A stretch of DNA of 23,522 nucleotides, taken from positions 1 to 23,522 of the IMG/VR virus record IMGVR_UViG_3300030085_002705. One strand, written 5' to 3'. Position numbers and translations under genes: made by a program. The notes beneath the pieces were generated by a model. It saw nothing but the letters and a program-made list of their open reading frames with translations. It made no database searches and was not told the origin of the DNA. The DNA comes from a virus. Shown piece after piece: positions 10,848 through 22,089 of the stretch. Every line of letters begins with the position of its first letter. Position 1 is the first letter of the stretch.

Positions 10848-10857
10848 TCAAAATAAA

Positions 10858-10903
10858 CTGAATGCCGCTTCAGTGTATTTTTATTTACTGAATGACGATT
10901 CAG
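10858..10903. promoter_or_regulatory. Pair of palindromic operators CTGAATGNCGNTTCAG
   Basis: CTGAATGCCGCTTCAG (10858-10873) and CTGAATGACGATTCAG (10888-10903) are two 16-bp inverted repeats with 14 of 16 bases identical. Their centres are exactly 30 bp apart, close to three helical turns, so dimers would bind the same DNA face and could cooperate. A further half-site (ACTGAAT) occurs near 10776. They lie between the late and early promoters, which is where a repressor of a divergent switch would bind. The binding protein is unknown. Confidence 0.6.
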
Positions 10904-10915
10904 CGAACGGCCGCT

Positions 10916-10945
10916 CGCGCGCGGGCGCGCGTACGCGCGCGCGTG
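10916..10945. repeat. Alternating GC tract with 16-bp palindrome
   Basis: Positions 10925-10945 alternate purine and pyrimidine without a break, and 10925-10940 (GCGCGCGTACGCGCGC) is a perfect palindrome. The flanking 10916-10924 is also nearly pure C and G. Such DNA readily forms Z-DNA or a cruciform under negative supercoiling. It lies about 20 bp before the early promoter. Confidence 0.6.
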
Positions 10946-10963
10946 ATTTCTTGCGCTTATTTA

Positions 10964-10998
10964 TTGACGTTGATATCAATATAGTGTACGGATAGGTA
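10964..10998 (+). promoter_or_regulatory. Early promoter region with TTGATATCAA palindrome
   Basis: TTGACG (10964-10969) lies 17 bp before TACGGA (10987-10992), a poor -10 box; TATAGT at 10980 is a better match but its spacing is too short. The perfect palindrome TTGATATCAA (10970-10979) sits in the spacer. TTGACG is 31 bp from the AGCTAAC leader, against 30 bp at the minus-strand promoter near 20690, which supports a common promoter design. Confidence 0.45.
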
Positions 10999-11026
10999 AG
11001 AGCTAACTTTTAACAAGGACCGTCAC

Positions 11027-11482
11027 ATGAAGAAAGTATCCTGTCACCGCAACTTGAACCTTGCAAAGCGCAATCCGCGCAAGTTCGTTTGGATTCTCGG
11101 CAAGTCACCTAACAAAAGCGGTGATTTCGCACCTACCACGAAGCCTAAGAAGATAGCCGAAGTACACGACGGTGCATTTATGCTCAAGAATGCAGTGTTG
11201 CACGTCAATATGAACGGTGCTCGCAAGATTAACAGCGGTGCTCACCGTGAGGTCTGCGCCTATGCTCGCGGTGTCCTTGTTCCTAACGTATCGCCCCGCA
11301 CTGACGGTCGCCGGATCACTATCAATATGATCCAACGCGGTAAGGCCGACAAGATTACCGGAGGTATCGGACGCGGTGAATCACAGTTTGTTTTCGCTGA
11401 TACTCGCGAGCCTTGCCCAACTGTAGGCTTGACTATTTACGCCGATAGCACGGGGATGTACTTGGTAGGAGGTCAATCATGA
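11027..11482 (+). CDS. First early gene, basic protein of unknown function
   Basis: This 151-residue protein follows the leader GAGCTAACTTTTAACAAGGA with AAGGA 7 nt before the ATG. It has a Lys/Arg-rich N-terminus (MKKVSCHRNLNLAKRNPRKF), a mixed alpha/beta middle and Gly-rich strands at the end. There is no membrane segment or known motif. It is the gene nearest the early promoter and forms a two-gene unit that ends in a strong terminator, which suggests strong, early and separately controlled expression. Early first genes of phages often act on host transcription or defence, but that is only a possibility here. A tandem ATGA overlap links it to the next gene. Confidence 0.78.
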   Translation: MKKVSCHRNLNLAKRNPRKFVWILGKSPNKSGDFAPTTKPKKIAEVHDGAFMLKNAVLHVNMNGARKINSGAHREVCAYARGVLVPNVSPRTDGRRITINMIQRGKADKITGGIGRGESQFVFADTREPCPTVGLTIYADSTGMYLVGGQS

Positions 11483-11619
11483 GACCAAAGGTAGGGCAAA
11501 CAATTGACCATCATATTTTAGGCGAGTGCGTGATTATTGCTGTTCATGACTTTGGGACGCTAGACGTTGAAGACAGCTTAGGCAACTGCTACCGAGTCAC
11601 CGGACTAGACTTTATTTAG
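11479..11619 (+). CDS. Very small early protein of unknown function
   Basis: This 46-residue ORF starts inside the stop of the upstream gene (ATGA) and has TAGGAGG 7 nt before the ATG, a strong site. The protein is mostly short beta-like segments (HHILGECVIIAVHDFGTLDV) and ends YRVTGLDFI. Strands such as GECVIIAVHDFGTLDVEDSL could form a small beta barrel, but I do not recognise it. It ends 21 bp before the terminator, so the two genes form one unit. Confidence 0.7.
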   Translation: MRPKVGQTIDHHILGECVIIAVHDFGTLDVEDSLGNCYRVTGLDFI

Positions 11620-11640
11620 ACCGAATCGCCTACCCTATCG

Positions 11641-11669
11641 AGCCCCGGCATTGACCGGGGCTTTTTTTT
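11641..11669 (+). terminator. Strong intrinsic terminator
   Basis: AGCCCCGG (11641-11648) pairs perfectly with CCGGGGCT (11655-11662) around a 6-nt loop and is followed by seven T residues. It ends the 11027-11619 unit and isolates it from the next early operon. Confidence 0.92.
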
Positions 11670-11675
11670 GCCTTC

Positions 11676-11820
11676 ATTCAGGACCTATCCGCGAGCCTGG
11701 TTTTTCTTTCCGGTTTTTCGCAACTCATTCAGGACTTCATTTTCGGGTATTCGGGACCGTATTCGGGACCTGTGCCCTATTTTCTTGCCAGTTGTGCGTT
11801 ATTCAGGATGTATTCGGGAT
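11676..11820 (+). repeat. Six direct repeats ATTC[AG]GGA[CT]
   Basis: Copies begin at 11676, 11727, 11749, 11761, 11801 and 11812. Four of the six are preceded by T. Two pairs are spaced 12 and 11 bp apart, about one helical turn, as in iterons. The partial TTCGGGT at 11742 adds a seventh weak copy. Confidence 0.65.
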
Positions 11821-12003
11821 AGTAAAGGCCACTTGAGAGCATAAACGGTCACTCGTTTTAAAGTATACTCCCAAGCGACCCAATAACGTTACCCCCACTT
11901 TCACCTTATAAAGCACCATTCGTCAAGCGGATGAAGATAAATGAACCTATGATCCTAATGAACCACCTCACCAAACTATTTTTTTATATACCGTCTGGCG
12001 CTC

Positions 12004-12090
12004 TAAGTGCCTGATATTGTGTCTTATAAGAATTTCAAATGTTTAAAGTAAGAATATTAAACATTCACAATCATAAGTGCCTGATATCGT
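12004..12090 (+). repeat. 17-bp direct repeats flanking an inverted repeat
   Basis: TAAGTGCCTGATATTGT (12004-12020) and TAAGTGCCTGATATCGT (12074-12090) differ at one base and lie exactly 70 bp apart. Between them AATGTTTAA (12038-12046) is inverted as TTAAACATT (12057-12065), within AT-rich DNA that also holds the palindrome CTTATAAG (12023-12030). The arrangement resembles a replication initiator binding region with an unwinding element. Confidence 0.65.
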
Positions 12091-12111
12091 TTAGAAAGTG
12101 CCCTTAAAACC

Positions 12112-12179
12112 TATCTACATCGCCGATCATTATCTTCATTCGTTCATTTTTTCGCTATTTCTATCTACATTATCTACAT
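12112..12179 (+). repeat. TATCTACAT direct repeats
   Basis: Exact copies start at 12112, 12162 and 12171, the last two in tandem. TATCTTCAT at 12131 is a near copy. They differ in sequence from the repeats upstream, so this region has at least three unrelated repeat families. Confidence 0.6.
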
Positions 12180-12186
12180 TATTTAC

Positions 12187-12221
12187 TTGATACGTCTATC
12201 AACAACTGATACGAGTATCAA
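12187..12221 (+). promoter_or_regulatory. Putative early promoter and two operator-like palindromes
   Basis: TTGATACGTCTATCAA (12187-12202) and TGATACGAGTATCA (12207-12220) are adjacent inverted repeats. TTGATA at 12187 has a 17-bp spacing to TACGAG at 12210, a weak -10 box. The region immediately precedes the GAGCTAAC leader of the second early operon. Both repeats overlap the promoter elements, so a repressor or activator bound here would control the operon. Confidence 0.45.
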
Positions 12222-12251
12222 TACGAGCTAACTTTAACCAAGGATACTTCA

Positions 12252-12545
12252 ATGCAACCAACTAACCGCGCTACCGTCTGGAGTCGCAATGCTTATTCAC
12301 TGTGGGTAGTCGAGCGCTCTTACCCTGTTCAGTTCCTTAAAACACTGGACCTCCCCGATCGCCCTGGCGTTATTAAGATGCATAACGATCGCTTTTATTC
12401 GTGGTTGCCCGAGGGAATCGACGCTAACGGCGAATCACAAGACGGCTGGATATCTTGCCAGACGTGCCGGACCTTAAATCCCCTTGAGGATCATATCTGT
12501 CAGGGATGTGGTGATCTTATTCAGCCTGAAATGGATTGGGGCTAA
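12252..12545 (+). CDS. Small early protein with C-terminal zinc ribbon
   Basis: The 97-residue protein has a C-terminal treble-type metal site: C69-x2-C72-x10-C83-x2-C86, with the wording CQTCRTLN...CQGCG. This is a four-cysteine zinc ribbon. The first 60 residues are unrelated to any family I know (LWVVERSYPVQFLKTLDL). Zinc ribbons bind nucleic acid or protein, so an adaptor or regulatory role is possible. It is the first gene of the second early operon, with AAGGA 7 nt before the ATG and the shared GAGCTAAC leader. Confidence 0.8.
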   Translation: MQPTNRATVWSRNAYSLWVVERSYPVQFLKTLDLPDRPGVIKMHNDRFYSWLPEGIDANGESQDGWISCQTCRTLNPLEDHICQGCGDLIQPEMDWG

Positions 12546-12591
12546 TACAATGCTTACATATCGAGCTAACAACTTAAACAAGGACATTAAC

Positions 12592-13284
12592 ATGATTAAC
12601 ATCGACTCCAACTACTTTGATTGCACTTCACTTGATACCGAGAAATTCTTGGAAGCGACACTAGGCGACCCAATCGAGCTAGACTCCCCCTTGATGGAAA
12701 CCTTCGGACTAGAACCAGGTGATTGGCTATCTAATTGTGAAGACGGACTTGCGAAGCTTATCGGGTGCTTAGAGGGTCAACCCTACCTGGCGCAAGGGCA
12801 ACTCGGTAACACGTACAACCATGAACAACAGCTGAGCGCCGATTTTGCGTGGCAAGTTTTCGCGCCGCATGACTGCGCCGATTATGTTTGGGCGGACGAT
12901 ATCTATGTAGCAATCGAGCCCCATTTAGGCGGCGACCCTCGGGGCAATTATGGCGCTTGGAGACTCTACAAGGTCGACAGCTTAGGCGAGTCCGGTTTTT
13001 ATGATCAAGTGGTGGGCTGGCACTGTGAACCCTTGCGAAGCTTTACCGAATGGAACTCAACTCGGGTTGATATCAAGTTTCAGTTATTCTTCGATTCTTA
13101 CTTGGAATCAGTCGAGCAAATTAACGAGCAAGCGTCGCCGGGTTATTCTCATTATCCCGCTGGCATTGTTGACGAACTCTTAGAGAATTCTCCGGAATAC
13201 TCACCGGAGCTGAGCTGTTTTGTTGGTGTGCTTAAGTGTGGTGGGCTGGTTAAGCTCTATCCCTACTCCAACCTACCCTACTAA
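12592..13284 (+). CDS. Early protein of unknown function, acidic and Tyr/Trp-rich
   Basis: The start is the ATG at 12592 because AAGGAC lies 6 nt before it in a new copy of the GAGCTAAC leader; upstream in-frame starts lack such a site. The protein has 230 residues, is strongly acidic and contains many Trp and Tyr (AWQVFAPHDCADYVWADDIY, GAWRLYKVDS). No membrane segment or catalytic motif is obvious. An acidic early phage protein can mimic DNA or bind a host factor, but there is no direct sign of this. The leader between it and the zinc-ribbon gene suggests a separate translation or transcription start. Confidence 0.8.
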   Translation: MINIDSNYFDCTSLDTEKFLEATLGDPIELDSPLMETFGLEPGDWLSNCEDGLAKLIGCLEGQPYLAQGQLGNTYNHEQQLSADFAWQVFAPHDCADYVWADDIYVAIEPHLGGDPRGNYGAWRLYKVDSLGESGFYDQVVGWHCEPLRSFTEWNSTRVDIKFQLFFDSYLESVEQINEQASPGYSHYPAGIVDELLENSPEYSPELSCFVGVLKCGGLVKLYPYSNLPY

Positions 13285-13337: not shown

Positions 13338-13376
13338 AATGGAGCTTATGACACTCCCACTAACAAGGACAAAACC

Positions 13377-13571
13377 ATGACCTACAAAATTATTCGATTC
13401 AGGTTCAAGGGTTCAAACCGCGTCATCAAACGCGGGTTGACACTTGAGGAAGCCCAAGCCCACTGCCAGCGGCCCGATACGCGGCAAGCTGTAACCAAAG
13501 TACACCCTGATGGGTCAACAACTGAACACGTCGAATGGTTCGACGGGTACGAAAGCGAGGTAAAATCATGA
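13377..13571 (+). CDS. Small protein of the LTLEEAQAHC family
   Basis: The start is the ATG at 13377, preceded by TAACAAGGACAAAACC; the earlier in-frame start overlaps hairpin 1 and has no site. The product has 64 residues and contains RVIKRGLTLEEAQAHCQRPD, matching a common small phage and plasmid protein family with GLTLEEAQAHC-x-DPET. The usual DPET is replaced by RPDT here. Its function is unknown. Its stop overlaps the next start (ATGA). Confidence 0.85.
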   Translation: MTYKIIRFRFKGSNRVIKRGLTLEEAQAHCQRPDTRQAVTKVHPDGSTTEHVEWFDGYESEVKS

Positions 13572-13772: not shown

Positions 13773-13805
13773 CATTATCGGGTTTACTCAAACAAGGACA
13801 ACACT

Positions 13806-14198
13806 ATGTACGACTTAAAAAAACAGGTTACTGTTTCATTCACTTATTCAAAAACAACTCACGAATCAGCTGAGCACGGTGATTTTTCTGACACTGGGTT
13901 TTATCTTCACCCGTGGGAATATTCGACCCGGGACAAGGAGACGCTGGCGGATATCAAGAAAAATCCAGGCGATTATGAGGTGACCGATGACCTCGAATCA
14001 ATTCTGGACACTTGCCGCAATCTTGGAATTTACGAATGTAGTTCAAGCGAGGTCCATTCAGGTTGTTGGTTTTCAAGCCACCCTGAAACAACCGACTGGG
14101 CAACCGGTGAAGATAGGACGCTATCCGTCCACATTCAGGGCGAGCTGTCCGAGGATATCAATTTCTTGAACTGGTTTAAATCGCAACTCCAAAACTAA
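13806..14198 (+). CDS. Early protein of unknown function
   Basis: The start is the ATG at 13806, preceded by AACAAGGACAACACT. The product has 130 residues and alternates acidic and aromatic stretches (GFYLHPWEYSTRDKETLADI, CSSSEVHSGCWFSSHPETTD). It has four Cys residues but no clear metal motif. I see no membrane segment. The gene has no close look-alike that I can name. It ends 13 bp before the next start. Confidence 0.75.
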   Translation: MYDLKKQVTVSFTYSKTTHESAEHGDFSDTGFYLHPWEYSTRDKETLADIKKNPGDYEVTDDLESILDTCRNLGIYECSSSEVHSGCWFSSHPETTDWATGEDRTLSVHIQGELSEDINFLNWFKSQLQN

Positions 14199-14211
14199 CA
14201 AGGGCAACACC

Positions 14212-14394
14212 ATGACACCCCAAGAAATTTTAGAAACAAATCCTATCTTAAAAAGCCCCGACCTCGGTTCGGGTCTAGCACGCTGGCAGAAGATTAGGGA
14301 CGCGGTGGAAGCCGCCCACCCTAACCTCAACCCTATGCGTCAGGCTGAAATCATCGGAAAGGTTATCGAGCGGTTGGAGGGCTCGGGTCAATGA
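14212..14394 (+). CDS. Small helical protein of unknown function
   Basis: This 60-residue ORF has AAGGG 8 nt before its ATG in the shared CTAACAAGG leader. The sequence is helical (GLARWQKIRDAVEAAHPNLN, MRQAEIIGKVIERLEGSG). No family is recognised. Its stop overlaps the next start by 4 bp (ATGA). Confidence 0.7.
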   Translation: MTPQEILETNPILKSPDLGSGLARWQKIRDAVEAAHPNLNPMRQAEIIGKVIERLEGSGQ

Positions 14395-14708: not shown

Positions 14709-14890
14709 AAGGCAGAAAACGACGCGGAACAACAACAATAACGCACCCCGAGTATGGCGACGTCGAGTGGATTGACACCAACGATTCGGGTACTCGGATT
14801 CAGATTAGATATTGGAGCCCGTCAGATGGGGGGTTTGTTAAGCAATGGGTTGATTGGACCCTACCAAAGAAAGAGGTAAGTAATGTTTGA
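14705..14890 (+). CDS. Small basic protein of unknown function
   Basis: The ORF has 61 residues, starts in the previous stop codon and has AGGTGG 9 nt upstream of its ATG. The N-terminus is very basic (MKGRKRRGTTTITH) and the rest is strand-rich with four Trp residues (EWIDTNDSGTRIQIRYW). The family is unknown. It overlaps the next gene by 8 bp. Confidence 0.7.
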   Translation: MKGRKRRGTTTITHPEYGDVEWIDTNDSGTRIQIRYWSPSDGGFVKQWVDWTLPKKEVSNV

Positions 14891-15146
14891 ACCAGATGAC
14901 GGTAAAGCGGGCAGAATGTGGAGACATAAGCTTGTGGATACTTTTGCAAAACATCTCGAACATCAAATGGATCATATGCATAATGACTGGATAAGCAATG
15001 AACCCAGCGACAATGATGTAGTGGAGATGGCGGCGCTTTGTGTGATTGCCATTAGTCAAATCGAGATTGCAACTAAGATAACTTCAATAGAAAAAATTCT
15101 TATGGACTTTAAAGAAAAAGGTAACCAACCAAAGAAAGAGAGCTAA
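14883..15146 (+). CDS. Small protein of unknown function, His/Met-rich start
   Basis: The product has 87 residues. The middle of its first half is rich in His and Met (KHLEHQMDHMHNDW), which could bind metal. A helical segment (VVEMAALCVIAISQIEIATK) follows that is hydrophobic but too mixed for a clear membrane helix. The gene overlaps the previous one by 8 bp and ends 3 bp before the next start, where GAGCTAAC forms the last codons and spacer. Function unknown. Confidence 0.72.
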   Translation: MFEPDDGKAGRMWRHKLVDTFAKHLEHQMDHMHNDWISNEPSDNDVVEMAALCVIAISQIEIATKITSIEKILMDFKEKGNQPKKES

Positions 15147-15149
15147 CCA

Positions 15150-15476
15150 ATGAAACCAAGAAAATGTAGCCGGTGTGGTTTATATGGCCACAACAAAGCA
15201 ACATGCAAAAAGACTGACGCGCAAATCGCAGAAGAAAAAAGACTTCGCGAAATTCGCCAGGAAAAGTTTGACGAGTTTTTAGAGAAACAGCGCACCGACC
15301 AGCTTTGGGCGCTCGTTGCGCTGGTCAATTCCGTTGCATCTCAAGCTGACATCCCCGCCTACCTCGAACTTGATGGAACCGGTGTCGTTTTTTTAGAGAT
15401 GATGGACATTGAGCTGGAGGGTGCTGACGCAGTACACGCGCTCATAGGTGCGCTGGCGTCAGCAAAATATGTCTAA
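15150..15476 (+). CDS. CCHC zinc-knuckle protein
   Basis: The 108-residue protein opens with CSRCGLYGHNKATC, an exact CX2CX4HX4C zinc knuckle (C6, C9, H14, C19) of the type that binds single-stranded RNA or DNA. A charged helix follows (AEEKRLREIRQEKFDEFLEK), then a mixed second half (VVFLEMMDIELEGADAVHAL). The knuckle suggests nucleic-acid binding, perhaps in replication or RNA handling, because the next gene encodes the helicase. The rest is not recognised. Confidence 0.82.
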   Translation: MKPRKCSRCGLYGHNKATCKKTDAQIAEEKRLREIRQEKFDEFLEKQRTDQLWALVALVNSVASQADIPAYLELDGTGVVFLEMMDIELEGADAVHALIGALASAKYV

Positions 15477-15592
15477 CGAAATCAGGCCCGGTTAAAATTC
15501 TCGCCAAGCATTATTTACGGCAAGGCGAAATTCGGGTAGCTTCGTAATTCAATTTCAATGGGGGGCTGCGCGGCCCTGGGGATACAATTTAA

Positions 15593-16990
15593 ATGAATGA
15601 GCTAACCACCTGTGTCGAGGAATATCTACAACATCACACACCCGAGTTCGGGTCAGATCCCATCCTAGCAAGAATGCTGCTTGATGCGCTCGTGTCGTCT
15701 TCACCTGAAGGACGCGCCGTGTCAAGCGATGGGAGCCTGTACATTTTCGACGGCGCTGTCTGGAATCGGGTCGAACACAACGACCTAATCTCGATGGCAC
15801 TGCTCTTTGATGGGCTCTGGTTGCCCGGAGACAAGCCAAAACGACTGACTGTAGGCTTGGCTAAGGCACAAGCAGTAGCGAACACTGTACTGCTAATTCA
15901 CGAGATTAAGAAGGACAAGTTTTTCAACAAGGTCTTACCTGGCGTTGCAGATAAAAACGGGTTCTGGGTTATCGATGAGTTTGGTGCAGAGATGCTCGAA
16001 CACTCGCCAGACAACCTCTGTACTTGGGCATACGATTTTGAGATTGACCCAAAAGCAGAGCCCGTAAAGTGGCTGAACTTCTTGCGCTCACTTTGGCGCG
16101 ATGACGACGACAAAGATTCAAAGATAGCTGCTATTCAAGAGTGGCTCGGGTGTTGCCTTACGGGTAAGAGCACGGCATACAGTCGGTGCTTACTGCTTGT
16201 CGGAAAGGGCGGCAACGGTAAGTCTGTGTTGATGGACGCGGTATCATCTCTCTGGCCAGATGACCGGGTTACGAGCGCCAGCCCAAAGCGGTGGGACCAC
16301 GACTATACGCTCGCAACTCTTCGGGACTCGTCGCTGAATATCTGTGCAGAGCTGCCGGAGTACAACGCGCTTGAGTCGAGCGATATGTTTAAGAGCGTCA
16401 TCGCGGGCGATAGATGTTCGGGTCGTCTTCCTTACCAGCCGCCGTTTTCGTTTATCCCTCGGGCTGGTCACATCTTCTCGGCAAACAATCTGCCATCAAT
16501 CGGGTCAGGTGATTACTCTGATGGCTTCTTTAGACGATTTCTCATTATGGAATTTAACCGCTCCTTTACAAACGACTATGCTCTTGAGCGCAGAAGCCAG
16601 GAGGAGATTCTTGGCGAGTTAAAAGAAGAGCAGGCTGCGATAGTGCACTGGGCACTTGAAGGTGCGGCTAGGCTCCTTCGTCACAGTGCGTTTACTTTGC
16701 CCGAGTCTCATCGTGAGACAATCGCACAATGGCACGCTGACAGTGACCCGGTTAAAGACTTTACCCTGGCTTGCTGCTCGACAGGAGAGAGTTCTTTGTC
16801 GGACTTGTTTCAGGACTTTAAGACGTTTTGTTCTGCGACAGGCCGCCGCTATGGTTCTTCTCGTGGGATGGCTAAACGTTTGCGGCTTTTGGGATACAAG
16901 GGAACACGCCGCTCCACTGGCACGTACTTTAACATACAAGCTAAGTTACGCGCCGAGTGGAGCGACTGCCCCATCTCAGACCCGTTCTAG
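15593..16990 (+). CDS. SF3/D5-type replicative helicase
   Basis: The 465-residue protein has a D5-like N-terminal part (residues about 60-190) and a superfamily 3 ATPase. Walker A is GKGGNGKS (204-211), the Walker B-like strand is LNICAELPE (248-256), motif C is HIFSANNLP (293-301) and the arginine region is FFRRF (312-316). It unwinds DNA at the replication fork and probably forms a hexamer. Relatives in P4-like elements carry a primase on the same chain; no primase motif is present here, and a separate prim-pol is encoded at 18972-18184. Its 3' end overlaps the HTH gene on the other strand by 15 bp. The upstream site GGGGA is 10 nt away. Confidence 0.9.
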   Translation: MNELTTCVEEYLQHHTPEFGSDPILARMLLDALVSSSPEGRAVSSDGSLYIFDGAVWNRVEHNDLISMALLFDGLWLPGDKPKRLTVGLAKAQAVANTVLLIHEIKKDKFFNKVLPGVADKNGFWVIDEFGAEMLEHSPDNLCTWAYDFEIDPKAEPVKWLNFLRSLWRDDDDKDSKIAAIQEWLGCCLTGKSTAYSRCLLLVGKGGNGKSVLMDAVSSLWPDDRVTSASPKRWDHDYTLATLRDSSLNICAELPEYNALESSDMFKSVIAGDRCSGRLPYQPPFSFIPRAGHIFSANNLPSIGSGDYSDGFFRRFLIMEFNRSFTNDYALERRSQEEILGELKEEQAAIVHWALEGAARLLRHSAFTLPESHRETIAQWHADSDPVKDFTLACCSTGESSLSDLFQDFKTFCSATGRRYGSSRGMAKRLRLLGYKGTRRSTGTYFNIQAKLRAEWSDCPISDPF

Positions 16991-17191
16991 CCAAGAGCGG
17001 CAAGGGATATCGCAGGCTTCTTCAAACTTAACAGCAAGTGTTAGTCCGGGTTTAAACCGGCCCGCAATTAATCGGCATAAGTGTTCGGGTGACACGTCGA
17101 GCATAAGGCTCAAGTCATACTGGCTTTTATCGTTATCTTGCATCCATCGACGCAAGCGCTTCACCCCTTTATTCGCTGGTCTTTTTTGCAT
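16976..17191 (-). CDS. Small XRE-type helix-turn-helix regulator
   Basis: The start is the ATG at 17191, with AAAGG 8 nt before it. The product has 71 residues. Residues about 24-63 (QYDLSLMLDVSPEHLCRLIA then KPGLTLAVKFEEACDIP) form a Cro/cI-like DNA-binding domain of five helices. There is no C-terminal dimerisation domain, as in small Cro proteins. It is the last gene of the leftward replication operon and overlaps the nuclease gene by 23 bp. It is the best candidate for a protein that binds the palindromes near 10865, 10895 or 12187-12220, but no direct link is visible. Confidence 0.82.
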   Translation of the reverse strand: MQKRPANKGVKRLRRWMQDNDKSQYDLSLMLDVSPEHLCRLIAGRFKPGLTLAVKFEEACDIPCRSWLERV

Positions 17192-17696
17192 AACCCAACC
17201 TTTCAATTAATTCTTTTGCTTCCACAAAACCATGGCAGACCGCCGTGTACCAACCGCGCTCTGCCAACGATTTCAACCAATGCTTTTGCGCTTCGCTTAC
17301 TCTGCCGCCTTTCTGCCGCTTGAGTTCAATCGCGCAACCATTATATCTCGTTTCTTCCCCGTCCTCGATGAGCGTACAGTGATCGAAGACCAAGCAGTCA
17401 CATACCCCCGCCTTAAGTCCTTCGGCACGCAACCTTGCTCCTCTGATTTGGGCACGCTTTCCATATCCGCCGTGCCCCTCGTTTGGTACGTGGCACCACA
17501 AGAGCTTGAGCCCGTCGAGGTATTTTGCCAGTTGGACTTGCTCATCTCGTTCGAGCGGTACGTCTGGCTTTGCTCGCTTTTTCTTTTTCGGACCTGCACT
17601 TTTCCACGCTTCATCAAACCCCCCTGCATCTTTTTGTTTTTTCCGGTAAAAGTTACCAATGGCTCTTTGTATTCTTTCTTTATGCTCATTCGACAT
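17169..17696 (-). CDS. VRR-NUC domain nuclease
   Basis: The start is the ATG at 17696, with GGAGG 5 nt upstream. The product has 175 residues. The basic N-terminus (KKKKRAKPD) precedes a VRR-NUC core: LERDEQVQLAKYL at 48-60, LKAGVCDCLVF at 94-104 (D100), AIELKRQKGGRVSEAQKHWL at 122-141 (E124, K126, Q137). These are the acidic, ExK and Q positions of the PD-(D/E)XK superfamily. The usual Pro before Asp (GVPD) is Cys here. VRR-NUC proteins cut branched or other DNA structures and phage copies lie in replication modules, as here. It should act in recombination or junction processing. Confidence 0.88.
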   Translation of the reverse strand: MSNEHKERIQRAIGNFYRKKQKDAGGFDEAWKSAGPKKKKRAKPDVPLERDEQVQLAKYLDGLKLLWCHVPNEGHGGYGKRAQIRGARLRAEGLKAGVCDCLVFDHCTLIEDGEETRYNGCAIELKRQKGGRVSEAQKHWLKSLAERGWYTAVCHGFVEAKELIERLGYAKKTSE

Positions 17697-17742
17697 TGAC
17701 GCCTCCGACAATTCAGTCCATAGTGAACTTAATCTCGGCTAC

Positions 17743-17766
17743 GTCCTTGTTGTCGAAGGTTAGCTC
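17743..17766 (-). promoter_or_regulatory. Copy of the GAGCTAAC-ACAAGGAC leader on the minus strand
   Basis: On the minus strand GAGCTAAC is followed after 8 nt by ACAAGGAC. This is the early leader seen on the plus strand. It directly follows the hairpin at 17768-17799 but the nearest long gene starts at 17696 with its own Shine-Dalgarno site, so this copy has no gene at normal distance. Only tiny frames follow it. Confidence 0.5.
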
Positions 17767-17767
17767 G

Positions 17768-17802
17768 AAGCGGCTAAGGCGTAAAAACCTTAGCCGCTTT
17801 TT
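17768..17802 (+). terminator. Terminator facing the rightward early operon
   Basis: AAGCGGCTAAGG (17768-17779) pairs perfectly with CCTTAGCCGCTT (17788-17799) around an 8-nt loop, and five T residues occur at 17798-17802 on the plus strand. It therefore stops plus-strand transcripts coming from the helicase gene. On the minus strand it lies right after a stop codon but has no good T run, so it is weaker in that direction. Confidence 0.78.
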
Positions 17803-17804
17803 CT

Positions 17805-18173
17805 CTAATACTTGCCAGTACCATCATAATACCTGTGACACGGCTCGTAGGGTGGCTCGTCTGGCTCAACAAAGTTCTCCTTTGCTTTTTCTGCCATCTC
17901 ATTTTGCCACTCACCGACTTCGCACATATCGCCCTCTTTGGCGTATGCCTCGACAGCTTCCGCCATCTTCTTACCGATTTCAGTGTAGTCTATTTTCTTG
18001 TTATCAATTAGGGCCTGCCCAATTGACCTAAGAACGGTGTCGCATACCTCGATGATATCTTCATCTTCGACAAGGTAATCCATGTCTCTTAATCGCCACG
18101 CTGTCCATTCTTCATCTGTTGGCTCTGGTCCGTCATCATAATCTGGTGGGCTTAAAGGTGGCTCTCCTGCCAT
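17805..18173 (-). CDS. Acidic protein of unknown function
   Basis: The start is the ATG at 18173, with AAGGAG 6 nt upstream. The product has 122 residues and is very acidic: a Pro/Glu/Asp N-terminus (PPLSPPDYDDGPEPTDEEW), a helical middle (LVEDEDIIEVCDTVLRSIGQ and TEIGKKMAEAVEAYAKEGD) and an acidic C-terminus (VEPDEPPYEPCHRYYDGTGK). No family is recognised. It lies between the primase and nuclease genes, so a replication accessory role is possible. Confidence 0.75.
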   Translation of the reverse strand: MAGEPPLSPPDYDDGPEPTDEEWTAWRLRDMDYLVEDEDIIEVCDTVLRSIGQALIDNKKIDYTEIGKKMAEAVEAYAKEGDMCEVGEWQNEMAEKAKENFVEPDEPPYEPCHRYYDGTGKY

Positions 18174-18183
18174 AACTAACTCC

Positions 18184-18972
18184 TTAGTGGTAACGTGAAA
18201 TAGACCAAACAATCTTTTCCACTTCTGTCCTGCCTAGCGGCGGTCGGCACTTGTTCTCATTTATTGCTAAGAGCATCGCAGAAACCTCATCAACTGTGTG
18301 CCCTCGTTTAAAGAGCTTGCCGCATAAGCTGGTGAGTGCGTTGTTCCTATATTCGTCAATGATTGGCAGGTCGTCAAAATTCCCTGATTCGATAGCAGGC
18401 ATTGGCACCGATGGTGCTCTTGGCTTTTCTTCAGTGACAATCTTGTGTAGCCACTGGGGAAACTTTTGCAGCTTAAACTTTGTAGGGCACCGGTCGAATG
18501 CATACCGCTTGCCTGACACATGCAGAGATGGGGGCAGAATAACGTGCCCACCTTGCGAGCGAATGTCGAGCCCGGGCTTAAAGCCAACCAAGTTCTTCAC
18601 CTTTACGCCCTGGAAAAATAAATGCCACCCACCGCCACCAGTGCGTGCTCTAGGGGTTTTTCGTAAGTATGCGGCCCTATCGTTGTCCAGCAGCTCTTCT
18701 AGGCTCTGGCGGCCTTTCTCGCCGTCCACATCGAGTACCGTGATGCTGCCGCAAGCAAGAGCGAGATTGTAGTTAGGATTGTCGGCAAACCACTCCTTGA
18801 CCTGCTCAGGGTCAAGGGTGGCATCTTTCCAACCCCGCCTTGTTGCGGGGTGCTTGCCGATTGATGAGCACTCTGGTCCATGGCGGCATGTGCAGACCGC
18901 ACCTTTTTGGACCCCATGCGCCGGAAACACAGGCCAGCCATTGCGCGTAAACCAGAGTGCCCACTCAAGCAT
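18184..18972 (-). CDS. Prim-pol type DNA primase
   Basis: The start is the ATG at 18972, which overlaps the previous stop (TGATG); a GTG at 18975 is an alternative. The product has 262 residues. The N-terminal prim-pol domain shows a Cys/His site (CTCRHGPEC...GKHP at 28-42), the metal-binding VLDVDG (D81, D83), GGGGWHLFF (H117), and LDIRSQGGHVILPPS at 135-149. A C-terminal PriCT-like part (NALTSLCGKLFKRGHTVDEV and RPPLGRTEVEKIVWSI) follows. It makes primers for replication, and some relatives also polymerise. It lacks a helicase, which is supplied by the gene at 15593. Confidence 0.9.
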   Translation of the reverse strand: MLEWALWFTRNGWPVFPAHGVQKGAVCTCRHGPECSSIGKHPATRRGWKDATLDPEQVKEWFADNPNYNLALACGSITVLDVDGEKGRQSLEELLDNDRAAYLRKTPRARTGGGGWHLFFQGVKVKNLVGFKPGLDIRSQGGHVILPPSLHVSGKRYAFDRCPTKFKLQKFPQWLHKIVTEEKPRAPSVPMPAIESGNFDDLPIIDEYRNNALTSLCGKLFKRGHTVDEVSAMLLAINENKCRPPLGRTEVEKIVWSISRYH

Positions 18973-19742
18973 CACTCTGCTCCAGCCATCTCGTCACCGG
19001 GAGGAGGTGGCAGATCGTCGGAGCAGGCGACCAATGGCTCAAGGCCCTTTGGTGGCATACCGGCTGAAACAAGCTGGAATGCTGCTCGAAGTTTGCTTGC
19101 GGCTTCCTCGTCAAAGTCAGAAGCCTTCTTGATTTCTAAGTAAGCAAGAACACGGTCGGGCTCAATCTTGTACTCCGCAAAAGAGTCAGCAGCCTTCTTG
19201 AAGTGTTTGCGGTTAGTAGCCGCACTGCGCTTCTTTGGTGGCGGCTCAAGGACAGCCTTTGCCTCTGGCGTTGGCGCAACCTGCTCGATTGCTCGGCTTG
19301 GGATTGTTGCCAGCTCTGACTCGTCTAGCATACCTAGCCCGCATATCGAAAGTGTCAGCCGGCGCTTTGCCTTAGTGATTGCCTTCATCCTATCGTTGAC
19401 ACCATCCATGCCCTTGCGCATAGGCACAACTGCGATGTCTTCATCGGTTCTTCCGTCAGGCGTCGTGCCTCTAGCATGAACCATAATCATCCCGTCCTGC
19501 ACTTCGTTCTGCAATATCTCGATACTGATACCGTGAACTTTGCGAAGCTGGTCAGCACAACCTTTTGTTGCGTAGAGCTTAAGCTGCCCATTCAAGCGGA
19601 TATACTGAAAGGGCTGCGTCATTGGGTTAAGACCCATGTTCTCGCAAAGCTTCTTCAAGAAAGCCAGTCGAGCCTCTGGCTGCAAAGCGCCGAGGTCATT
19701 GTTTACGAGCGCTAATTCTGCTGCTTGAACCATGTCTGTCAT
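18972..19742 (-). CDS. Candidate single-strand annealing recombinase
   Basis: The 256-residue protein belongs to a phage family with the wording LCENMGLNPMTQPFQYIRLN (32-51), KLYATKGCADQLRK (55-68) and MKAITKAKRRLTLSICGLG (119-137). A Pro/Lys-rich linker and an acidic C-terminal tail (DDLPPPPGDEMAGAE) follow; acidic tails occur in single-strand binding and annealing proteins. It lies next to a YqaJ exonuclease, the usual partner of RecT/Redbeta-type proteins. I therefore call it an annealing protein, though members of this family are often only called hypothetical. It would anneal strands made by the exonuclease. Confidence 0.62.
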   Translation of the reverse strand: MTDMVQAAELALVNNDLGALQPEARLAFLKKLCENMGLNPMTQPFQYIRLNGQLKLYATKGCADQLRKVHGISIEILQNEVQDGMIMVHARGTTPDGRTDEDIAVVPMRKGMDGVNDRMKAITKAKRRLTLSICGLGMLDESELATIPSRAIEQVAPTPEAKAVLEPPPKKRSAATNRKHFKKAADSFAEYKIEPDRVLAYLEIKKASDFDEEAASKLRAAFQLVSAGMPPKGLEPLVACSDDLPPPPGDEMAGAE

Positions 19743-19743
19743 T

Positions 19744-20637
19744 TCATATCTCCAATGCTTTTAAGGATGATGACATACGACGCTTGCCGTTTTTGTCAGG
19801 GGAGAACGTAATCTTGGCACCGTCGCCAAAGTCAATGCCGCGATACTCGCCGGTTGCTTCACGCAATTGATTTTGAAGCAGCGAAATACGCGTCTTGTTT
19901 GCTTTCTCAATCTTCTTAAGCTGTGCCAGCTCCTCGGCATAGGCACGCTCGTCAAGTGACGCTTCTCTCAAGTTCTCGCTCTTCATGGCAATCTTTGCAA
20001 GATGGCGAGCACAAGCAGCAGACGCATCTGTCGGCGGAGCAATTCCTGTCTCAACATGGTCTTTCCAAAATGAAACAGCCGCATTCATCTGCTCGGCAAA
20101 GCGCGCAGGGTCTTCCTTGATCACATAGATTTTCGGAAACTCAGTAGGAAAGAACTGGACACTAAGAACACAGGCTGGAGCGCCCGTCATACCGCAGTGC
20201 CAAATACACTGGTCCTTATAGCCCTCGTGAACATCATCGGTCCACTCTTCCCCATAGTAGTCACGGTCAGCTCGATAGCCTGCCTTTGTCTCAATAGTGT
20301 ACAGAGGCTTGTGATGGCGTGTAGAAGGTACTGCGAAGCCATCGGCAGTGTCCCGAAGGTTCACACCGTCAACTTCCTTGTACACAGTCTTCCCTGGCTT
20401 GATGATGATATCGAAGCCCTGGCGTTGTAGCTTCATCTCGGTAAGCTTTAAAAACGACGACTCTAGCACCGTCGCAACTTCCATGTACTCAGCGTTGGCA
20501 AAGACCTCTTCCTCGTCGGTTACCTTTGAACCCCATACGTCGTACGGCCCCCTGTGGGTGCAAGTGCCCATAATGCTTTTAATCTCGGAGCTACCGATGC
20601 AAACCTTGCGAGGTAACCCTGGTAATGAACTTGTCAT
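19744..20637 (-). CDS. YqaJ-type recombination exonuclease
   Basis: The 297-residue protein has the lambda-exonuclease-like core: GSSEIKSIMG at 15-24, the helix ATVLESSFLKLTEMKLQRQG at 55-74, TADGFA (D99), IETKAG (E116, K118) and YKDQCIWHCGMTGA (Q143) at 140-153. These are the acidic D...ExK residues and the Q of the YqaJ family. The C-terminal region (about 220-290) adds a coiled helix (LAQLKKIEKANKTRISLLQN). It degrades one strand of double-stranded DNA to give single strands for the adjacent annealing protein. It is the first gene of the leftward operon, with AGGAG 6 nt before the ATG. Confidence 0.88.
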   Translation of the reverse strand: MTSSLPGLPRKVCIGSSEIKSIMGTCTHRGPYDVWGSKVTDEEEVFANAEYMEVATVLESSFLKLTEMKLQRQGFDIIIKPGKTVYKEVDGVNLRDTADGFAVPSTRHHKPLYTIETKAGYRADRDYYGEEWTDDVHEGYKDQCIWHCGMTGAPACVLSVQFFPTEFPKIYVIKEDPARFAEQMNAAVSFWKDHVETGIAPPTDASAACARHLAKIAMKSENLREASLDERAYAEELAQLKKIEKANKTRISLLQNQLREATGEYRGIDFGDGAKITFSPDKNGKRRMSSSLKALEI

Positions 20638-20643
20638 AAAAAT

Positions 20644-20695
20644 CTCCTAAAAGTTAGCTGTGCTTGATACTAAGCTCAAACAATGCTAACGTCAA
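20644..20695 (-). promoter_or_regulatory. Promoter and leader of the leftward replication operon
   Basis: On the minus strand TTGACG (20690-20695) is 17 bp from TAGTAT (20667-20672), a good sigma70-type promoter. The leader AGCTAACTTTTAGGAG (20644-20659) follows and supplies the Shine-Dalgarno site. A GTATCAA half-site overlaps the -10 box. On the plus strand TTGATA (20664) and TAACGT (20687), 17 bp apart, form a weaker facing promoter for the 20724 gene. Confidence 0.65.
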
Positions 20696-21136: not shown

Positions 21137-21212
21137 AGAAAAAGAACTGTCTCGACGCATTGCGTCAGAACTAAATCGCGCAGGATTCTGGAATGAGGAT
21201 AGACGAGATTAG
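21063..21212 (+). CDS. Very small membrane protein overlapping its neighbour
   Basis: The ATG at 21063 follows AGGGGGCAAT, a plausible site, and encodes 49 residues. Residues 4-18 (TAVVLTLMLTLAIGL) form a membrane helix followed by a strongly basic and charged tail (KIRARAKEKELSRRIASELN). The positive cluster right after the helix suggests the C-terminus stays in the cytoplasm. It overlaps the previous ORF by 74 bp in another frame and the next gene by 20 bp. A spanin or holin-like role is possible but unproven. Confidence 0.55.
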   Translation: MKITAVVLTLMLTLAIGLKIRARAKEKELSRRIASELNRAGFWNEDRRD

Positions 21213-22089
21213 GGAAAGTGGGCGACCACTTGTAGTGAGCGTAAGCGGTGGCAAAGATAGCACGGCAGTCATTCTGTATTTAAAAGAACAAGAAATAGAG
21301 AAGACTAACCCTGTCCACTATGTGTTTGCAGACACAGGCTGGGAGCATCCTGAAGTCTACTCGTATTTAAACGAAGTGGTTAATCCGCTCTGCAACGGCA
21401 AGCTTAACAGGGTGCAATCAAAGAAGTACCCTGGGGGCATGGCTGACCTTGCAAAAGGTAAGGGTATGTTTGCCAGTCGGCAATACCGCTTCTGTACGTC
21501 CGAGCTAAAGGTTGTGCCTATCATCGAGTTCTTGGAGCAGTTTGATAACCCTATCAACGTGGTCGGGATTAGGGCGCAGGAGTCTTTCCGGCGAAGCAAG
21601 ATGGATGAGTGGGATGAGGGAGGACCGATGAATGTCTCTACCTGGCGACCCCTTATTGACTGGATTGTGGACGACGTAATCGGGATACACACTCGACACA
21701 GTATTGCGCCGTGCAGTCTTTACTTGCGCGACGAATTACCGGCCTCGCGAGTCGGGTGCTTCCCGTGTCTCCATAGCCGAAAGGCTGAGATACGCGCTGT
21801 CGCAGAAGACCCCTTCGGTCAGCAGCGACTGGTTCAAATAAGAAGCCTTGAGAAAGAGCTTGGCGACGCAGCGCAAGCCCGTAACCCCGAGAATGCGCGG
21901 CCTACCTTCTTTCAAAGCAGAGAGGCTGGCGAATCCTATTGGCCTATCGACGAGGTAATTGCTTGGTCCAAAACTTCGTGGGGTGGAAAACAGATAGAAC
22001 TATTTACGCCGCGTGATGAAAACGCTCGCGGCTGTATGCTATGGGGGCTTTGTGACATGCCTGACAAAGACGGCGAGTTTAGTGCCTAG
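21193..22089 (+). CDS. PAPS-reductase-family PP-loop enzyme
   Basis: The 298-residue protein has the PP-loop SGGKDST (18-24), DTGWEHP (47-53), RFCTSELK (99-106, C101), GIRAQES (125-131) and a Cys group (C174, C189, C192 in GCFPC) that may bind zinc or an iron-sulphur cluster. PP-loop enzymes of this family bind ATP or an adenylated sulphur donor. Host members reduce PAPS, and a related branch (DndC) takes part in DNA phosphorothioation. Phage copies are common and their substrate is mostly unknown. No dnd partner genes are visible, so I cannot choose between sulphur metabolism and nucleotide or tRNA modification. It starts in the upstream ORF with AGGA as site. Confidence 0.87.
   Translation: MRIDEIRESGRPLVVSVSGGKDSTAVILYLKEQEIEKTNPVHYVFADTGWEHPEVYSYLNEVVNPLCNGKLNRVQSKKYPGGMADLAKGKGMFASRQYRFCTSELKVVPIIEFLEQFDNPINVVGIRAQESFRRSKMDEWDEGGPMNVSTWRPLIDWIVDDVIGIHTRHSIAPCSLYLRDELPASRVGCFPCLHSRKAEIRAVAEDPFGQQRLVQIRSLEKELGDAAQARNPENARPTFFQSREAGESYWPIDEVIAWSKTSWGGKQIELFTPRDENARGCMLWGLCDMPDKDGEFSA

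Follow-up and report, generated by a model that had tools for sequence, protein, structure and literature searches.

A candidate phage-encoded antisense RNA complementary to a leader word shared by the early genes of a phage group

Introduction

The CI RNA of P4 acts by transcription termination in one leader and, like lambda OOP and P22 sar, is a phage antisense RNA that controls phage genes, a trait that the RNA predicted here would share. OOP and sar each act on one overlapping gene (PMC12197685). The c4 RNA of P1/P7 is a structured, phage-encoded molecule of ~77 nt, one part of which occludes a ribosome site while another binds upstream and provides specificity; its described target is the ant mRNA, and RNase P releases it from a longer precursor (PMC5320573, PMC12197685). 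VpdS of phage VP882, a phage-encoded regulatory RNA, acts with Hfq on phage and host RNAs and affects the levels of both phage and host mRNAs; the description mentions no leader word common to phage early genes (PMC12197685).

Short words at gene starts are known from Cluster K mycobacteriophages, where SAS/ESAS elements occur in one orientation at many non-structural gene starts, often with a promoter that overlaps an inverted repeat upstream (PMC3203893, PMC11373665). The phage group studied here likewise carries an asymmetric, one-orientation repeat just upstream of many non-structural starts and, as in ESAS, a promoter with an overlapping inverted repeat (TTGAYR-N4-YRTCAA) upstream of a subset of them. 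However, consensus (GGGATAGGAGCCC in SAS, GAGCTAAC here) and hosts differ, a second class of sites lies 14-26 nt before the start codon, ahead of a separate Shine-Dalgarno sequence (SD), and a complementary small RNA is predicted, none having been described for SAS.

Sequences and relatives

The window, i.e. the whole stretch of DNA analysed, comprises the 23,522 bases of a linear virus record. Relatives were found via a putative recombinase (18972-19742, minus strand) and the gene at 11027. The 7-mer statistics of leaders are based on ~200 kb (the window and 11 related contigs), with genes called by a simple script and leader sites that have common ancestry and are phylogenetically not fully independent. 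A related second subclade includes G003, G008, L012-L015, L199 and L215-L217. No relative of the recombinase was found among 84,980 prokaryote genomes in a search for hosts, comparisons of terminase, capsid and recombinase turned up no close cultured phage in the records searched, and PHROG revealed no integrase among the genes searched. The window also encodes a phosphoadenosine phosphosulfate reductase-like gene (21193-22089, PHROG 424).

Results

A leader word at the starts of non-structural genes

The preliminary description of the window had proposed that a repeated octamer leads early genes and recommended counting it against random expectation. This excess was borne out, with seven copies of GAGCTAAC in the window compared to 0.63 expected and a maximum of three in dinucleotide shuffles. 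An unbiased scan of all 7-mers within 45 nt upstream of predicted genes, in the window and the 11 related contigs, returned AGCTAAC as the most over-represented word (52 of its 93 copies vs 2.84 expected), enriched beyond every SD 7-mer. The genes downstream belong to 27 sequence families, and only few of 86 control contigs have comparably strong leader words of their own.

Distances from word to start codon are bimodal, and the 62 non-redundant sites divide into 23 of class I (0-3 nt) and 39 of class II (14-26 nt). In class I, e.g. AAGGAGCTAACC-ATG, the word overlaps SD and spacer; these sites are often operon-internal and sometimes include the stop codon of the preceding gene. Class II sites have a separate SD, e.g. 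AAGGAC or AGGAG, between word and start codon, and a TTGA[CT] box ~30-44 nt upstream in 24 of the 39. In promoter-type leaders the word mostly begins 7 nt past the -10 hexamer, so that the predicted mRNAs begin with GAGCUAAC; most of 25 such leaders place it where transcription is predicted to begin.

In G003 and G008 (~37 kb each), start-associated copies are confined to non-structural genes. The family of gene 12592 keeps its leader in the window, L005 and G002 despite mutually unrelated upstream DNA; in L005 the ortholog retains the leader behind DNA unrelated to that of the window. This persistence, together with an enrichment above any SD 7-mer, upholds the earlier view that the sharing exceeds what a ribosome site needs. 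The word hardly varies across sites, and single-substitution variants compatible with wobble pairing are modestly over-represented in leaders (11/110 vs 18/468, p=0.014).

The leaders in the window are given below, with the predicted binding of each to the small RNA described further on and its rank among 39 genes.

11000-11020, plus strand: leader GAGCTAAC...ACAAGGAC of gene 11027-11482; -18.9 kcal/mol, second
12225-12244, plus strand: leader GAGCTAACTTTAACCAAGGA of gene 12252-12545; -15.6 kcal/mol, third
12563-12585, plus strand: operon-internal leader GAGCTAACAACTTAAACAAGGAC of gene 12592-13284; -19.0 kcal/mol, first
13361-13370, plus strand: short-form leader TAACAAGGAC of gene 13377-13571, which matches only the first part of the guide; -13.6 kcal/mol, fifth
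13790-13799, plus strand: short-form leader AAACAAGGAC of gene 13806-14198; -10.1 kcal/mol, eighth
14196-14205, plus strand: short-form leader TAACAAGGGC of gene 14212-14394; -7.5 kcal/mol, tenth
15140-15147, plus strand: class I copy that overlaps both the SD and the stop codon, 2 nt ahead of gene 15150-15476; -14.7 kcal/mol, fourth
20653-20659, minus strand: AGCTAAC leader of the RecE-like exonuclease gene 19744-20637, promoter TTGACG-17-TAGTAT; -10.5 kcal/mol, sixth

As first described, GAGCTAAC occurs on the plus strand at 11000, 12225 and 12563, each time ahead of an AAGGA site and a start codon. The shorter form reported before three further genes is exact at 13361 (TAACAAGGAC), while AAACAAGGAC at 13790 and TAACAAGGGC at 14196 each contain one mismatch; a gene in L216/L217 that is 92% identical to the one at 13806 has a full AGCTAAC leader. 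The minus-strand site placed at 20644 is a real leader with a promoter, although it reads CAGCTAAC and lacks the G of the octamer. Three copies had been set aside as non-leaders, rightly for 4887 (antisense, inside the scaffold gene) and 15599 (just within the primase coding sequence, ATGAATGAGCTAACC), whereas 15140 is a leader that overlaps the ribosome site of gene 15150.

Several other features surround these sites. The small protein encoded at 15150-15476 has a CX2CX4HX4C zinc knuckle, rare in phages; its gene is duplicated in G002 and missing in G003. Next to it, 14883-15150 is a cassette site where relatives carry differing small genes separated by AAAGAGAGCTAACC-ATG junctions. A GC hairpin upstream of the primase (15545-15606) shows a compensatory difference between subclades (GGGC-TGCGCG-GCCC vs GCGC-TGCGCG-GCGC) and precedes the conserved start ATGAATGAGCTAACC, where the word is already part of the coding sequence.

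Early promoters and a probable operator

Two leaders in the window are preceded by operator-like palindromes, and a small HTH protein is a candidate repressor:

10964-10979, plus strand: operator-like palindrome TTGACGTTGATATCAA, containing the -35 box of the 11000 leader
12187-12202, plus strand: operator-like palindrome TTGATACGTCTATCAA, upstream of the 12225 leader
16976-17206, minus strand: small HTH_3 protein (Pfam HTH_3, E=2e-5), in all clade contigs covering the locus that were searched

The palindrome TTGAYR-N4-YRTCAA is probably an operator, given that the -35 box forms its first half and that the clade contains 50 such 16-mers compared to 0.6 expected in Markov-1 simulations. The HTH_3 protein would be the obvious candidate repressor for these TTGA-N8-TCAA sites. 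Further, a divergent control region between late (minus) and early (plus) genes at 10850-10950 contains CTGAATG/CATTCAG inverted repeats and a CGCGCG run. The long gap at 11620-12251 holds a cluster of ATTCAGGAC / ATTCGGGAC repeats (11665-11830) and the short repeats TCTACATTATCTACATTATT and AAGTGCCTGATAT; the cluster looks like the iterons of an origin or regulatory region.

A conserved, predicted small RNA locus complementary to the word

The preliminary description had also listed a minus-strand leader at 17743. This one is not a leader: its octamer (17759-17766) lies ~62 nt from the next start codon and adjoins a plus-strand terminator, and the element at 17743-17766 is the complement of the guide of a predicted plus-strand small RNA.

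17696-17724, plus strand: predicted small RNA promoter, -35 TTGACG (17696-17701), 17-nt spacer, -10 CATAGT (17719-17724)
17731-17802, plus strand: predicted small RNA of ~72 nt, aligned in 13-15 relatives, 5' end inferred from the -10 position
17743-17751, plus strand: guide part 1 GUCCUUGUU (anti-Shine-Dalgarno), complementary to leader AACAAGGAC
17758-17766, plus strand: guide part 2, seed GGUUAGCUC, complementary to GAGCUAACC and identical in all relatives
17768-17802, plus strand: terminator hairpin AAGCGGCTAAGG-CGTAAAAA-CCTTAGCCGCTT with T run, its stem covarying among relatives

From ~17731 the plus strand reads AAUCUCGGCUACGUCCUUGUUGUCGAAGGUUAGCUCGAA, the hairpin GCGGCUAAGG-CGUAAAAA-CCUUAGCCGC and a U run, and the guide GUCCUUGUU...GGUUAGCUC complements the leader GAGCUAAC...AACAAGGAC in the correct antiparallel order. 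In the window, the promoter matches 9 of 12 positions and is the sole promoter-like site in 16900-18300, an interval for which chance alone predicts 1.4; only half of the operator is present there. The promoter position is conserved in relatives, with TTGACA inside a full operator palindrome and a -10 of TAAAAT, TAAGTT or TAAAGT. In the second subclade it reads TTGACA-18-TAAAAT or close to it, again within the full palindrome, and the RNA starts with UGUCCUUCAG, after which come a small stem-loop, GGUUGGGUUAGCUCGAA and the terminator.

Across ten sequences of the second subclade, pairing holds in all 170 cells of the two stems, with four pairs altered on both sides and a covariation score matched by none of 500 shuffles, while in slid controls the paired fraction drops to 23-62%. 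The plus strand contains four G.U cells and no A.C cells, thus it is the strand that keeps the structure, which names it as the transcribed one. By prediction, the locus thus combines the features of a trans-acting bacterial or phage small RNA: conserved structure, promoter, seed and intrinsic terminator.

The locus is present in every relative covering that region. In IMG/VR, a pattern scan picked up 15 stretches, every one belonging to contigs of this group or to new members that only the pattern revealed; the matches listed by a loose promoter-plus-word scan of IMG/VR were mostly due to chance. A covariance model built from the RNA matches the window at 86 bits (by construction) and produced no hit at E<0.47 and nothing convincing in 62 control contigs. 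The RNA locus had no match in 50,697 phage records. Across ~270 loci, an unbiased screen looked for terminators that have the complement of a multi-copy leader word in front of them; it recovered the small RNA locus in many contigs and otherwise only L245 and L062.

Predicted pairing with early leaders

Binding predictions allowed both partners to fold (accessibility-aware). The five best of the 39 window genes were those with the 12592, 11027, 12252, 15150 and 13377 leaders, followed by the exonuclease as sixth. Mean predicted binding in the window was -15.7 kcal/mol for motif leaders vs -4.9 for other genes; the motif-leader means of G003 and G008 were -16.5 and -16.8 compared to about -5.9 kcal/mol elsewhere. 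Shuffled guides reached only -5.0 to -6.3 on the same leaders (z = -4.9, -6.7 and -7.5 for window, G003 and G008). Duplex energies computed without accessibility or folding competition did not separate targets from other genes. The predicted cofold of the RNA with the 11027 leader consists of 12 bp (seed), a 3-nt bulge and 9 bp (part 1), and spans GAGCUAAC and AACAAGGAC.

Most leaders of G003 and G008 are predicted to be bound more strongly by their own small RNA than by that of the other subclade, and pairing past the 7-mer is longer with the RNA of the own subclade (permutation p=0.004). G002 is an exception, with weaker binding and motif leaders on which the RNA of the other subclade scores better. 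The earlier suggestion that the leader marks a common mRNA element for a regulator is supported by a conserved candidate regulator complementary to both the word and the adjacent SD; this candidate would be an RNA and not a protein.

Discussion

The word, its placement, a conserved structured RNA gene and the complementarity between the two are established by sequence. We consider it likely that a phage-encoded antisense RNA shuts off the translation of early non-structural genes via the shared word. As the guide complements the word and the adjoining ribosome site, one RNA could silence the whole early gene set. Early non-structural genes would bear GAGCUAAC either at the predicted mRNA 5' end with a separate SD or overlapping the SD; the seed GGUUAGCUC would pair with the word and, in the subclade of the window, GUCCUUGUU with the SD AACAAGGAC, which would cover the ribosome site and block initiation. 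We infer that the RNA is transcribed, that it pairs with leaders in the cell, that this represses them, and when it does so; repression is preferred over activation based on the SD overlap. Moreover, the RNA promoter of the second subclade shares the operator palindrome of early promoters, hence the RNA is expected together with early transcripts. This common operator family suggests a delayed shut-off of early translation, in which the small RNA would appear alongside early transcripts and then shut them down, while late structural mRNAs, which lack the word, would stay unaffected.

Other readings of the word were weighed against this antisense mechanism. It might be a start-associated element read by the ribosome or by an RNA-binding protein of phage or host, the complementary RNA locus being incidental, which we regard as unlikely. 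Placement and orientation do resemble the mycobacteriophage SAS (PMC3203893), and the small CCHC zinc-knuckle gene 15150-15476 occurs in several relatives and itself bears the word. However, G003 lacks this gene even though its sequence covers the interval concerned and has at least ten leader copies; the zinc-knuckle protein was rejected as word reader, as G003 keeps the word without it. By chance, a complement beside one of 4-7 terminators should turn up 0.01-0.03 times per genome, whereas it is conserved throughout. A role in transcription, as the initial transcribed sequence of early promoters or as operator of an HTH repressor, is very unlikely: while TTGACV boxes lie 34-41 nt upstream of AGCTAAY and the promoter-type word mostly begins 7 nt after the -10, there is no upstream promoter at 22 of 23 class I and 15 of 39 class II non-redundant sites, orthologs keep the word behind unrelated upstream DNA, and the operator is distinct from the word, being a palindrome that covers the -35.

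Little credence can be given to the view that 17743-17766 is an ordinary minus-strand leader of the VRR-NUC gene and that no small RNA exists. The minus strand does read GAGCTAAC...ACAAGGAC and is preceded by a hairpin like some other leaders, but the VRR-NUC start codon is ~62-65 nt away in the window and G003, compared to 0-3 or 14-26 nt elsewhere. Further, T run and G.U pairs are compatible with the plus strand only, on which the second subclade has a correctly placed TTGACA-18-TAAAAT. Still more remote is the idea of a recombination boundary, i.e. short homology used by phage recombinases to swap early genes. Upstream of gene 12592, the homology between window and L005 does start at ATCGAGCTAAC, and an AAAGAGAGCTAACC-ATG junction is where different small genes are exchanged; however, 7-12 bp is short homology for such recombinases, and the two strict start distances, the SD overlap and the complementary RNA would be left unexplained.

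Among described systems, c4 is an analogue of the antisense RNA proposed here, since its RBS-occluding and upstream complementary regions are mirrored by the predicted 12 bp/bulge/9 bp duplex. Unlike c4, the RNA found here comes with a predicted promoter of its own, and its predicted targets number about ten or more. The c4 Rfam model gave no hit at the gathering threshold, relaxing the cutoff to E=5 added none for the window or the G003 locus, and no Rfam family matched. By analogy, the small RNA is c4-like in its predicted action and not a member of c4. In mycobacteriophage Anaya, the single inverted SAS site has no clear terminator alongside, so a small RNA is unsupported there.

Leader words also exist in other phage groups. 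The unrelated L040/L041 have their own word, CACTTAC, before SD and start, which is also found at the end of TTGACA promoters; an antisense stretch adjoining a terminator exists there, and no promoter was seen at that place. In L245 (15482), GGAGACA precedes several genes (7 of 8 copies are leader-like) and its complement TGTCTCC lies just ahead of a terminator hairpin, possibly a second example of such an RNA.

We consider it an even chance that the whole early regulon is under the control of one self-encoded small RNA, an RNA-based switch from early to late expression, and that other groups (e.g. L040/L041, L245, mycobacteriophages with SAS) may use matching RNAs. Each of c4, OOP and sar acts on a single gene; here the predicted targets are about ten or more leaders of early genes. 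If true, a virus would encode an RNA switch that acts across a regulon, and start-associated repeats in phages, a question open since 2011, would gain a testable mechanism.
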